Assembly (NCBI GenBank): GCA_027620495.1
Contig: JAQCEA010000016.1
Span: forward strand, 1 to 48,062
DNA length: 48,062 nt
From: Pseudomonadota bacterium
Lineage (GTDB): Bacteria; Pseudomonadota; Alphaproteobacteria; Puniceispirillales; Puniceispirillaceae
Direction of reading: 5' to 3'
The translations under genes were made by a program, and so were the position numbers. Under the pieces are notes generated by a model. It worked only from the letters and a program-made list of their open reading frames with translations, made no database searches and was not told where the DNA came from. Below are positions 32,621 to 42,655 of this stretch, piece after piece (the first letter of the stretch is position 1; each line of letters starts with the position of its first letter).

Positions 32621-33925
32621 ATGAATGGCCGTTTAGACCATGATGTGACCAATTTTAGTGGCTGGATACGGGTGGCGTTTGATGCAGCCCTATTGGCTGG
32701 ACAACCGTTGCGCATCACCCAATCCGCCTGTCAATCGATTGCCGCGCCAACGGCTGTTGTGGCGCTTGGCAAAGCCGCCGGGGCCATGGCTGAAGGGGCG
32801 CGGGCGGCCGGTGTGACCGCGCCTGGTATCATTATCACCACCGATGAAAACCACCGTCAAATTGAAGGATTTGATTGTGTTGCCGCGTCTCACCCGGTGC
32901 CTGATCTGCGCGGGTTGCGCGCTGCTGAAAAGGTTACAGATTTGGTGATGCGGCTAAAGGCAGATGATCATTTGCTGTTGCTAATCAGTGGCGGTGGGTC
33001 CGCCTTGTTACCAGCACCAGCGGCCGGTATTTCACTGGAACAAAAAATTGCACTGAATGATGCGTTGCTGGCAAGCGGGCTGGATATTCACGATATGAAT
33101 GTGATCCGGCGGCTGTTTTCCGCTTTAAAGGGGGGGCGGCTTGCACGTTTGGCGGCCCCTGCAAAAATCACCCAATTTTTACTGTCTGATGTACCTGGTG
33201 ACCGTCTGGAATCCATCGCCAGCGGTGTTGCGGTGGCTGATCCGGTGCCATTTGACTATGCAAAAGACCTTGTCAAAAAACACCGCCTAGACCAGCTCGA
33301 TTTTGTTGCGGCACATATGGCGGCACTGGAAAAAAATGATGAATTGCGACCTGTGCGCCCGGGCGACCCGTGTCTGGACTTGGTGCATAGCTCGGTTTTA
33401 GCCAGCAATGCGCAATGCCGTGATGCGGCGGCGGGTTGGCTGGCCAAAGAGGTGCCGGAACTAGCACAAATAGATGCGCCAGAATTAGCGGGTGAAGCAC
33501 AGCAAATGGCGCGCCAGCTTGTAACCCAAATTTGCCAACACAAGGCAAGTCAGGGCAGTGCCAATCAAATTTTTGGCATTGTCAGCGGCGGCGAAACGGT
33601 GGTGTCTATTGACAGCATGACGGCCGGGCGTGGCGGCCGGTCACAAGAGCTGGCGCTCGCCTTTGCTTGTCATATGCGACAAGCTGGCCGTTCGGCCCCT
33701 GCCAATTGGGCGGTGTTGGCCGGGGGGACCGATGGCCGTGACGGGCCAACAGATGCGGCTGGCGGGATTTTTACATCACGCCAGAATTTTGATCTTGGTG
33801 CGGCCACAAATGCGCTGCAACGTCACGACAGTTATCATTTTTTGTCCGCGCAAAATAGTCTGGTTAAAACTGGGGCAACGGGTACCAACCTTGCTGATCT
33901 TGTTTTAATCGTCTGGTCAGGATGA
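32621..33925 (+). CDS. Glycerate 2-kinase (GckA/TtuD, MOFRL family)
   Basis: A 434-residue kinase making 2-phosphoglycerate from D-glycerate with ATP. VALGKAAGAMAEGA, the GGGSALLPAPAAGISLEQK loop, RRLFSALKGGRLA and the C-terminal MOFRL-like AGGTDGRDGPTDAAGG place it firmly. Some family members are annotated hydroxypyruvate reductase, an older name. With the dehydrogenase directly upstream it completes glyoxylate/serine carbon entry into glycolysis. Two hairpin-forming palindromes follow before mgtE. Confidence 0.92.
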   Translation: MNGRLDHDVTNFSGWIRVAFDAALLAGQPLRITQSACQSIAAPTAVVALGKAAGAMAEGARAAGVTAPGIIITTDENHRQIEGFDCVAASHPVPDLRGLRAAEKVTDLVMRLKADDHLLLLISGGGSALLPAPAAGISLEQKIALNDALLASGLDIHDMNVIRRLFSALKGGRLARLAAPAKITQFLLSDVPGDRLESIASGVAVADPVPFDYAKDLVKKHRLDQLDFVAAHMAALEKNDELRPVRPGDPCLDLVHSSVLASNAQCRDAAAGWLAKEVPELAQIDAPELAGEAQQMARQLVTQICQHKASQGSANQIFGIVSGGETVVSIDSMTAGRGGRSQELALAFACHMRQAGRSAPANWAVLAGGTDGRDGPTDAAGGIFTSRQNFDLGAATNALQRHDSYHFLSAQNSLVKTGATGTNLADLVLIVWSG

Positions 33926-33962
33926 GTCGTTTGGTACGCCGCAGATGATGGGTGCCGTTCTG

Positions 33963-34021
33963 CCGCTTTTGAAATATAATTTCAAAGCGGGCGCGATTAG
34001 GATTTTGAAATAATATTTCAA
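33963..34021. promoter_or_regulatory. Two copies of palindrome TTGAAAT-N3-ATTTCAA upstream of mgtE
   Basis: Copy 1: TTGAAAT (33969-33975), ATA, ATTTCAA (33979-33985). Copy 2: TTGAAAT (34005-34011), AAT, ATTTCAA (34015-34021). The arms are identical and the copies are 36 bp apart. Copy 1 extends outward with CCGC (33963-33966) and GCGG (33987-33990), with one extra T, so it could also fold as a hairpin ending the upstream gene. Copy 2 does not extend, so the shared part looks like a protein-binding site. Confidence 0.55.
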
Positions 34022-34132
34022 TTTGATTTTTGCCAGTAATGACCCAAACGGTAGTTCCGTCAGGCCATTCAGTCTGCTATGCTGGCGGCGCTGTAAATAT
34101 ACAGCCCATAAAGGGAATTGGAGCAGGCACCG

Positions 34133-35533
34133 ATGGCAGATACCACACAGGTTTCTGAACGCAAGGATGACCAGTCGGACCGGCTGACCTCTTTGTATGG
34201 TCTGACCCCAAAGGTGGAATCTGCCATCATTGACGCGGTTCAGTCTGGTGCGGTGCGTCGGCTTCGAACATTAGTGGCACCGTTGCATCCGGCAGATCAG
34301 GCTGATTTGCTTGAACGATTGCCAACCCGCAGCGCCACCGCCATGGTGCGTTTGCTTGGCGATCATCTAGATGCCGAAACCCTTACCTATGTGGATGAGT
34401 CCACCCGCGAAGCTATTATTGAGGCCATCGGCACGGATGGTCTTGCACGACAGCTTCAGGACCTGTCAACAGATGATGCCATCACCATTATCGAAGAACT
34501 GGAACAGGATGATTTGCAGGATGTTCTGGCGGCATTGTCTGCAGAAGACCGGGTATTGGTCGAAGAGGGGCTGTCCTTTCCAGAAGATTCGGCTGGTCGA
34601 TTGATGCAGCGTGAAATCGTCACGGTGCCATCATTTTGGACGGTTGGGCAAACCATTGATTTTTTGCGCAGTGGCAAATCTGCGATTGAAGATTTCTATC
34701 TTATTTTCGTGACCGACCCGTCACGCAAGCCACTTGGTGAAATTGCGCTGAGCCGTTTGTTGTGTGCGCAGCGGCCACGGCGCGTCTCGGAACTGATGGA
34801 TACCGATTTCAGATCAATTCCGGTTGATATGGATCAGGAAGAAGTGGCGGTATTGTTTCGCCGCTACGGTATGGTGAGCGCTGGTGTTGTTGATCCGCAT
34901 AACCGGCTTGTTGGCATGATTACCAATGATGATGTGATCGATGTGATCGATGAAGAAGCCGAAGAAGATTTGTTGGCATTGGCTGGTGTGGGCGATGCCA
35001 ATCTGCGTTCTGGTCTATGGGAAACATTGCAGGGGCGTTCATCTTGGTTATTTATCAATCTGCTAACGGCGGTTCTGGCATCTGCGGTGATTGGTGTTTT
35101 TGATGCCACGATTGAACAGTTAGTGGCCTTGGCCATATTGATGCCGATTGTGGCTTCGATGGGGGGCAATGCGGGGACGCAAACCATGACCGTGGCGGTG
35201 CGCGCCATTGCCCTGCGGCAACTTGATGCGGCGGCAACACGCCAATTTGTTTTGCGTGAACTGATTGTGGCGACAACCAACGGGTTGTTATTTGCTGCCT
35301 TGGCGGCGGGGCTATCCTATTTTTGGTTTGGGGATCAGAACATTGCCATAGTGATGGCGGTGGCGATGATGGCCAATTTGCTGGTTGCCGGGCTAAGCGG
35401 TACATTTGTGCCGGTTGGCCTGATGCGCGCCGGTGTTGATCCGGCTGTTGCCTCTAGCGTATTTGTTACCACCATTACTGATGTTGTTGGGTTTTTCGTT
35501 TTTCTGGGGTTGGCGGCGATGTATTTGATCTAG
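34133..35533 (+). CDS. mgtE: Magnesium transporter MgtE
   Basis: A 466-residue Mg2+ channel/transporter. A cytosolic MgtE N domain (about residues 25-130, ALHP-like LHPADQADLLERLP), a CBS pair (about 135-270, ending RLVGMITNDDVIDVIDEEAEED) and five helices follow in order. The pore motifs MGGNAGTQTMTV and DVVGFFVFLG are intact. Acidic residues in the N and CBS domains sense Mg2+ in known members. ATG 34133 is preferred to TTG 34118, with GGAG upstream. Two palindromes precede it. Confidence 0.95.
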   Translation: MADTTQVSERKDDQSDRLTSLYGLTPKVESAIIDAVQSGAVRRLRTLVAPLHPADQADLLERLPTRSATAMVRLLGDHLDAETLTYVDESTREAIIEAIGTDGLARQLQDLSTDDAITIIEELEQDDLQDVLAALSAEDRVLVEEGLSFPEDSAGRLMQREIVTVPSFWTVGQTIDFLRSGKSAIEDFYLIFVTDPSRKPLGEIALSRLLCAQRPRRVSELMDTDFRSIPVDMDQEEVAVLFRRYGMVSAGVVDPHNRLVGMITNDDVIDVIDEEAEEDLLALAGVGDANLRSGLWETLQGRSSWLFINLLTAVLASAVIGVFDATIEQLVALAILMPIVASMGGNAGTQTMTVAVRAIALRQLDAAATRQFVLRELIVATTNGLLFAALAAGLSYFWFGDQNIAIVMAVAMMANLLVAGLSGTFVPVGLMRAGVDPAVASSVFVTTITDVVGFFVFLGLAAMYLI

Positions 35534-35581
35534 CTGAATGGCGGGTCATGGCGCTCTTGATTGCCCGGTGGATAGTCTTTG

Positions 35582-35995
35582 ATGACAGTGCATTTGAAAA
35601 AATTATCGGTGGGGTCGCAATCGCTTGAGACTTTGCGTGCATGGCAGGCGTTACGTTTGTCGGAAACCGGCCGATTAATGCATGTCACGCGCAATCGGCC
35701 GCGCCTGGCCGAGGAAATTTTAGATGGCGGGTCGATTTACTGGATTATCAAAGGCGTGATGAGCGCGCGCCAAAACATTATTGATTTGGCCGAAGTGCAA
35801 CGTGCTGATGGTCAAGTTGCATGTGGTCTCGTGCTCAGCCCTGATCTTGTCGCTACAGTGCCGACAAAAATGCGGATTTTTCAGGGCTGGCGCTATTTAG
35901 AGACTGAAGACGCACCGGCAGATTTGACCGCCCCGTTTGACGAAAGCATGCCGCCCGCCTTGGTGGCGGAATTGCGCGAGCTTGGTGTGTTGTAA
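35582..35995 (+). CDS. DUF1489 family protein
   Basis: A 137-residue protein of DUF1489, a family found mainly in Alphaproteobacteria. HVTRNRPRLAEEILDGGSIYWIIKGVMSARQ and CGLVLSPDLVATVPTKMRIFQGWRYL are its characteristic blocks. No role is known. ATG 35582 is preferred to TTG 35579. It lies 48 bp after mgtE and may be cotranscribed. It is convergent with the nuclease-fold gene. Confidence 0.88.
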   Translation: MTVHLKKLSVGSQSLETLRAWQALRLSETGRLMHVTRNRPRLAEEILDGGSIYWIIKGVMSARQNIIDLAEVQRADGQVACGLVLSPDLVATVPTKMRIFQGWRYLETEDAPADLTAPFDESMPPALVAELRELGVL

Positions 35996-42471: not shown

Positions 42472-42532
42472 ATCATCTGGTACTGCTTAAACATGTGAGG
42501 GGCCGCCGGAATTAGGCGCGAAAAAATATCAC

Positions 42533-42545
42533 GTAAAAATTTTAC
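42533..42545. promoter_or_regulatory. Small palindrome in the MATE/rlmE divergent spacer
   Basis: GTAAAA-A-TTTTAC at 42533-42545, a perfect 13-bp palindrome in the 184-bp spacer. The A/T content is high, so chance or promoter composition could explain it. Confidence 0.3.
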
Positions 42546-42655
42546 TGTAAAAGCCATAGTAATGCTAAGGTCGTTTTACTCAATTTTGTCCGGTGTTATG
42601 ACATGCCGGTGATGCAGAGTTTAACCTGATTTATCGATTTGGTGGGTATCCAAAA

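Follow-up and report, generated by a model that had tools for sequence, protein, structure and literature searches.

The window, by which we mean the whole 48,062-nucleotide stretch of contig JAQCEA010000016.1 that was analysed, comes from a genome of the family Puniceispirillaceae, which we take to be SAR116. Here we describe a 207-bp spacer in this window, lying between a gene for a DUF4147/MOFRL protein and mgtE, the gene for an MgtE-type magnesium transporter. The spacer holds two palindromes and a predicted promoter element, as follows.

32621–33925, plus strand: upstream gene, DUF4147/MOFRL protein (Pfam)
33969–33985, no strand assigned: distal palindrome TTGAAAT-ATA-ATTTCAA, putative operator site (core GAAAT-ATA-ATTTC), exact and conserved in relatives
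34005–34021, no strand assigned: proximal palindrome TTGAAAT-AAT-ATTTCAA, putative operator site, exact and conserved in relatives
34075–34083, plus strand: predicted extended -10 element TGC-TATGCT of the mgtE promoter (conservation)
34133–35533, plus strand: mgtE, MgtE-type magnesium transporter, presumed target (Pfam PF01769, PF03448 and CBS; TIGR00400)

The mgtE assignment made in the preliminary description is borne out by matches to PF01769, PF03448 and CBS and by a TIGR00400 score of 307.5 bits, above the cut-off (232.75), and the gene starts with ATG at 34133. One search found mgtE in 49 of 61 relatives, and it is present in 44 of the 61 family genomes. The DUF4147/MOFRL gene lies outside the unit, since a gene for an ScfR-type regulator precedes mgtE instead in the 20 relatives fetched. 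Downstream, a DUF1489 gene follows mgtE (34133–35995 for both), apparently in the same order in several relatives, as read from loci on the reverse strand.

Twin palindromes upstream of mgtE

The preliminary description had reported two copies of TTGAAAT-N3-ATTTCAA with 7-base arms, 36 bp apart. Both are exact and lie where it had placed them, and the distance holds as a centre-to-centre value, the gap proper being 19 bp. Across the whole genome (2,403,379 bases), these two are the only exact matches, while up to two mismatches are tolerated at 28 places, against three for a reversed-pattern control. Within the window alone, matches at up to three mismatches are not in excess (6 versus 5.22 expected), so that the signal resides in the exact pair. 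Boxes for Fur, Mur, Irr and PhoB are inverted or direct repeats in front of metal or phosphate genes, and the consensus of the window palindromes is presumably different from all four. The mgtE leader has another inverted repeat, GCTGTA-AATA-TACAGC, at 34090–34105, which was not seen in the aligned relatives.

Conservation was assessed in 42 of the 44 family upstream regions with mgtE (G017 and G018, cut by contig ends, were omitted) and in 15 of the 19 with mgtE from outside the family (G048, G049, G053 and G054 were left out), using a matrix trained on promoters of lrpX, a regulator gene described below. Scores above 6 bits were reached in 32/42 family upstreams, 0/15 upstreams outside the family and 3/118 window tiles; the preliminary description had named absence of the motif upstream of mgtE in related genomes as evidence against it, and the family counts are the opposite. 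Two sites above 6 bits occur in 20 of the 42, and 19 of these pairs are spaced by 26, 36 or 37 bp. Moreover, the second-best place falls at one of these three distances in 26/42 family upstreams, compared with 1/15 outside the family and 1/118 window tiles. The spacing follows lineage: the 36-bp pair recurs in seven other genomes of the genus (G002, G003, G004, G006, G007, G008 and G012) and in G020, the 37-bp pair in 7/8 genomes of g2 and 3/4 of g8, and the 26-bp pair in members of g3, g5, g10 and g11, mostly with one site degenerate. Additionally, a relaxed scan of 136 order genomes, allowing up to three mismatches, returned the 36-bp pair with zero or one mismatch in eight genomes, all upstream of mgtE.

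The surrounding DNA has diverged. In eight relatives, picked because the pair is present, 85% of site positions match the window sequence, against an identity of 42% between the sites and, over flanks of 60 bp, of 31% on the upstream and 41% on the downstream side. Ten upstreams score below 6 bits (G001, G009, G014, G005, G035, G023, G061, G062, G070 and G073), including that of G001, the closest sister, whose mgtE is 93% identical and whose upstream region is without both palindromes. In this G001 region (L012), the downstream promoter sequence is still recognisable, which would fit loss of the operator segment by deletion.

That the pair is conserved, at fixed spacings and within DNA that has otherwise diverged, supports two protein-binding sites, in line with the dimeric regulator bound twice that the preliminary description had suggested, and the twin palindromes are very likely a functional tandem operator. 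Chance formation of palindromes in AT-rich DNA agrees with the lack of an excess in the window at three mismatches, but it would hardly leave only two exact copies 36 bp apart that are conserved while their background diverges; on this conservation we reject it, at negligible probability.

The palindromes could alternatively act as RNA, either by terminating transcription of the upstream gene or as a hairpin in an mgtE leader. In favour of this, the distal palindrome continues beyond its arms to give a stem of -12.1 kcal/mol (z -2.15). The proximal hairpin, however, is no better than shuffles (z -0.09), and fully complementary 7-base arms are found in only 6 of 52 family sites. Relatives often combine a left-hand GAAAT with a right-hand ATTAC, and since such arms cannot pair fully, RNA pairing is very improbable. 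A hairpin or terminator is rejected because the arms are not kept complementary and because the terminator scan of 33900–34200 gave no terminator-like match at the palindromes, its two matches lying inside mgtE at 34172–34188. A riboswitch or leader RNA is likewise rejected, as there is no Rfam match within 33400–34600 at E up to 1.

LrpX and other candidate binders

A candidate binder comes from the other places at which the motif occurs. Near-exact sites were located at 41 places in 14 relatives, 13 of them at mgtE, and the other 28 were read. The regulator genes with such a site in their promoter are lrpX, in G033 and G027, and scfR, in G033. The lrpX site of G033 is exact and lies 86 bp before the gene, and G027 has the orthologous site. 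LrpX is a protein of the Lrp/AsnC family, with an AsnC-type HTH followed by an Lrp/AsnC ligand-binding domain, as seen in the G033 protein (PF01037 63.6, PF13412 55.9 and PF13404 48.8 bits, all past cut-off). The copy in the window's own genome is remote from mgtE (G000:C38:136943-137416) and matches Lrp-family NCBIfam models below their cut-offs; for the E. coli Lrp equivalog (NF008370, PRK11169; cut-off 233), it scores 111.7 bits and the G033 protein 111.3. Genomes with a close orthologue number 54/61 in the family, 100/136 in the order (E up to 1e-45) and 85/144 in the class (E up to 1e-50).

The lrpX matrix was seeded on nine promoters of the genus and trained without any mgtE sequence, with the bias that its seed had been spotted by eye for resemblance to the mgtE site. 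Training settled on G[CT]AAT-AWT-NTT[AG]C or a near variant of it, at no less than 9.7 bits in all 54 family lrpX promoters, which are the training set of the matrix. The window genome's own lrpX element is weak (GCAATTAACTTGC, 12.4 bits), and the strict motif, at 13–14 of 14 positions, is present in 5/54 lrpX promoters (four g3 genomes and G023). Beyond the training set, scores above 6 bits were obtained for 25/28 class-wide lrpX promoters and for 1/28 class-wide mgtE upstreams, each set comprising 28 of 30 loci obtained, out of 85 and 100 matching genomes. For other Lrp paralogues, three from the window's own genome and eleven spread over four further genomes, no promoter matches the motif at more than 12 of its 14 positions. 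Applied to the 48-kb window, the matrix ranks the proximal palindrome first (14.0 bits) and the distal palindrome second (12.4 bits), with the next place at 9.5 bits, and only 1 of 2000 symmetric column permutations equals its performance on the family mgtE upstreams. In genus g3 (G027 and G033), the lrpX and mgtE sites are both TTTTGTAAT-N3-ATTAC.

These matches suggest that the twin palindromes are probably a two-site operator for LrpX. By analogy, this reading is also supported by fit to the literature on Lrp sites, which matches both the 13-bp palindrome and the clustering. Several observations argue against it: G001 and G009 keep LrpX while their mgtE upstreams score below 6 bits, no LrpX match was found in G007 (93% complete, 280 contigs) though that genome has the mgtE pair, the spacing is half a turn off, and mgtE and lrpX sites do not co-vary among genera, the observed similarity being reached in 348 of 500 shuffles (28 genomes, 9 genera). 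Moreover, LrpX is present in f2 and f4, yet none of the 15 upstreams outside the family has a site. We keep LrpX at the same confidence because the result on ScfR given below speaks for it, whereas the pair without LrpX in G007 and the lack of co-variation speak against it.

The same observations bear on an unlikely alternative, in which another dimeric regulator also acts at lrpX, so that the shared motif would mark a common regulator of both genes and not LrpX itself. Sites missing where LrpX is present, the sites in G007, mgtE and lrpX sites that do not co-vary by genus and the weak own lrpX element would all suit such a regulator. It is countered by the retention of the element at 25/28 class-wide lrpX promoters, as autoregulation predicts, and by the fit of 13-bp palindromes to the Lrp family in the available extracts of PMC2995911 and PMC8707732. 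It is further countered by a Burkholderiales MAG in which the pair precedes an unrelated Lrp gene: there, the 36-bp pair is placed between a divergent gene and, about 65 bp downstream, an Lrp/AsnC gene other than lrpX, whose product is 33% identical to LrpX. The G033 lrpX element is similarly placed, between a divergent PF06258 ELM1 gene and lrpX; given these positions between divergent genes, the G033 element and the Burkholderiales pair could each serve the other gene.

Some minor features of these promoters may be recorded. A third similar palindrome follows the Burkholderiales pair (L130, about 2000–2016). In the lrpX promoter of L285, two elements of 9.6 and 5.3 bits are 36 bp apart. Four class-wide lrpX loci (L284, L292, L308 and L310) also have ORFs that read as an ELM1-family gene divergent from lrpX, and in this arrangement (G033 L146 409–1428 and the class-wide loci) the conserved element sits between the genes or just before lrpX.

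A different candidate binder is ScfR, a regulator of the XRE/ScfR family whose gene is the immediate upstream neighbour of mgtE in many relatives. This arrangement holds in 20/20 relatives fetched (L346–L365), and G033 has a 13-of-14 match to TTGWAATNNNATTWCAA about 60 bp before its PF09856 (ScfRs) gene, scoring 4.8 bits with the lrpX matrix. The scfR promoters, however, have a palindrome of their own, GTAAA-N3-TTTAC, in 20/20 cases and 62–109 bp before the start. At the 97% tile threshold, a matrix of this element detects 2/42 mgtE upstreams of the family, where the lrpX matrix detects 32/42, and in the window the scfR matrix places the two palindromes 25th and 197th. Furthermore, the window's own genome, g3, g5, g10 and others retain the sites with other genes upstream, as judged by reading. 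ScfR is thus a most improbable binder, as its matrix fails on the mgtE sites. The top match of the scfR matrix in the window is CACGTAAAAATTTTACTGT at 42530–42548 (13.8 bits), which lies between ORFs that read as a MATE transporter-like gene and a 23S rRNA methyltransferase-like gene.

Position of the sites and effect on mgtE

A sigma-70 consensus scan found no promoter at mgtE, and the assignment of the -10 element therefore draws on conservation only: of the 32 family upstreams with a site, 28 have TGNTANNNT on the downstream side of the proximal one. In the window, the first base of TATGCT lies 65 bp from the centre of the proximal site. This distance is 65–67 bp within the genus and 35, 44–47, 57–59 or 68 bp elsewhere; values of 71, 80 and 94 bp come from G064, G031 and G067, in which the proximal site is weak or missing. 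A phase test gave R 0.74 at 10.5 bp (p ~0.0004) for 12 hand-picked lineages, whose values are post hoc and non-independent. These 12 values were taken from 32 upstreams, with G020, G024, G031, G034, G064, G067 and G068 dropped because they have no clear -10 or because the proximal site is weak or missing, the 71, 80 and 94 bp values being among the latter. The pair spacings of 26 and 36–37 bp differ by one turn and correspond to about 2.5 and 3.5 turns.

From sequence comparison, we infer LrpX as the binder, cooperativity between its sites and their position at the promoter, and the parts would fit together as follows. Each 13-bp core, GAAAT-N3-ATTTC, would be occupied by one LrpX dimer, and the pair of dimers would act jointly, perhaps as part of a larger Lrp assembly. 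Relative to the core promoter, the two sites would be upstream, and they would be roughly in helical phase with the -10 element. The likeliest effect would be activation of mgtE upon a small-molecule nutrient signal; both the activation and the signal are guesses, and activation is slightly favoured on account of the sites lying upstream of the predicted core promoter.

LrpX might instead bind and repress mgtE, for example by wrapping DNA across the promoter, and repression and DNA wrapping are indeed reported for Lrp-type proteins in the extracts of PMC2995911 and PMC8707732. The location of the sites, 35–68 bp upstream of the predicted -10 element in steps of about one turn and outside the core promoter, makes such repression doubtful, though it retains a real share of the probability.

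Relation to known systems and wider distribution

According to the available part of PMC2995911, an Lrp-family dimer binds a 13-bp palindrome, target regions carry several sites, and archaeal sites are spaced by two or three whole turns. The operators of Lrp/AsnC proteins, such as the archaeal FL11 palindrome (PMC2995911 and PMC8707732, in extract), share with the window sites a 13-bp semi-palindrome, an AT-rich centre and clustering, and an element before the presumed cognate gene. Lrp-type operators are (semi-)palindromes of about 13–15 bp with an AT-rich centre, which the window core GAAAT-N3-ATTTC matches, and the two window sites are clustered at 36 bp. The same element also stands before an Lrp gene, which is usual for such operators without being strictly defining, the window genome's own copy being weak. 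They differ from the described operators in that the target is a magnesium transporter and the spacing is 2.5 or 3.5 turns (26 or 36–37 bp) instead of whole turns, a regularity that is usual in archaea and not defining. Co-variation of operator and cognate promoter among genera, expected of such a pair and likewise not defining, was not found here.

Three other systems offer comparisons. ChrS of Bacillus (PMC10991351) is also an Lrp/AsnC regulator of an ion transporter, for chromate, but it is described as a repressor of chromate efflux genes, and the window genome's LrpX scores 54 bits where the ChrS cut-off is 250. PA2577 of Pseudomonas aeruginosa (PMC8707732) likewise regulates a membrane transporter gene, yet it represses its divergent neighbour PA2576, whereas mgtE is not beside lrpX here. 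The M-box (ykoK leader, PMC4974804) also controls mgtE, but through RNA, for which the spacer has no Rfam match. Among the matches listed from open-licence papers, none links Lrp-family proteins with mgtE, and none of the literature matches listed offers a usable alphaproteobacterial Lrp motif. PMC5343134 has no text on Lrp or mgtE, and the extracts of PMC11975290 and PMC7486931 deal with neighbours of trxB.

The kind of system is known, and its novelty lies in the gene targeted, in an element found class-wide and in the unusual spacing. We tentatively propose, at somewhat less than even confidence, that a class-wide alphaproteobacterial Lrp regulator may have been rewired to mgtE in one marine family, coupling the transporter to nutrients or amino acids, with dimers offset by half a helical turn (26 or 36–37 bp), unlike the whole-turn arrays of Lrp proteins. 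If true, this would provide a candidate regulator, motif and target for an Lrp/AsnC protein of 85/144 sampled class genomes, and would connect a feast/famine regulator with the import of magnesium in a marine clade. Natural variants, with spacings of 26, 36 or 37 bp and lineages devoid of sites, make the mechanism directly testable.

The motif also occurs beyond mgtE and lrpX. A search of five genomes for a wider regulon gave 76 places matching GNAATAWTNTTNC, 16 of them strict palindromes: five at mgtE, three at lrpX and eight elsewhere, the latter comprising six in long ORFs, one intergenic (G020) and one ambiguous. Beyond the strict palindromes, the reading covered twelve asymmetric places, all of them in ORFs. 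When genomes of named species were scanned for the exact pair, eight stretches came up, four of them from this family. Besides the Burkholderiales pair described above, the matches outside the family are one within an ORF (L135), one intergenic (L136) and one, also intergenic, about 160 bp before a gene for a cNMP-binding-domain protein (L131). Given the position of this gene downstream, the L131 match may also mark the promoter of a regulator.
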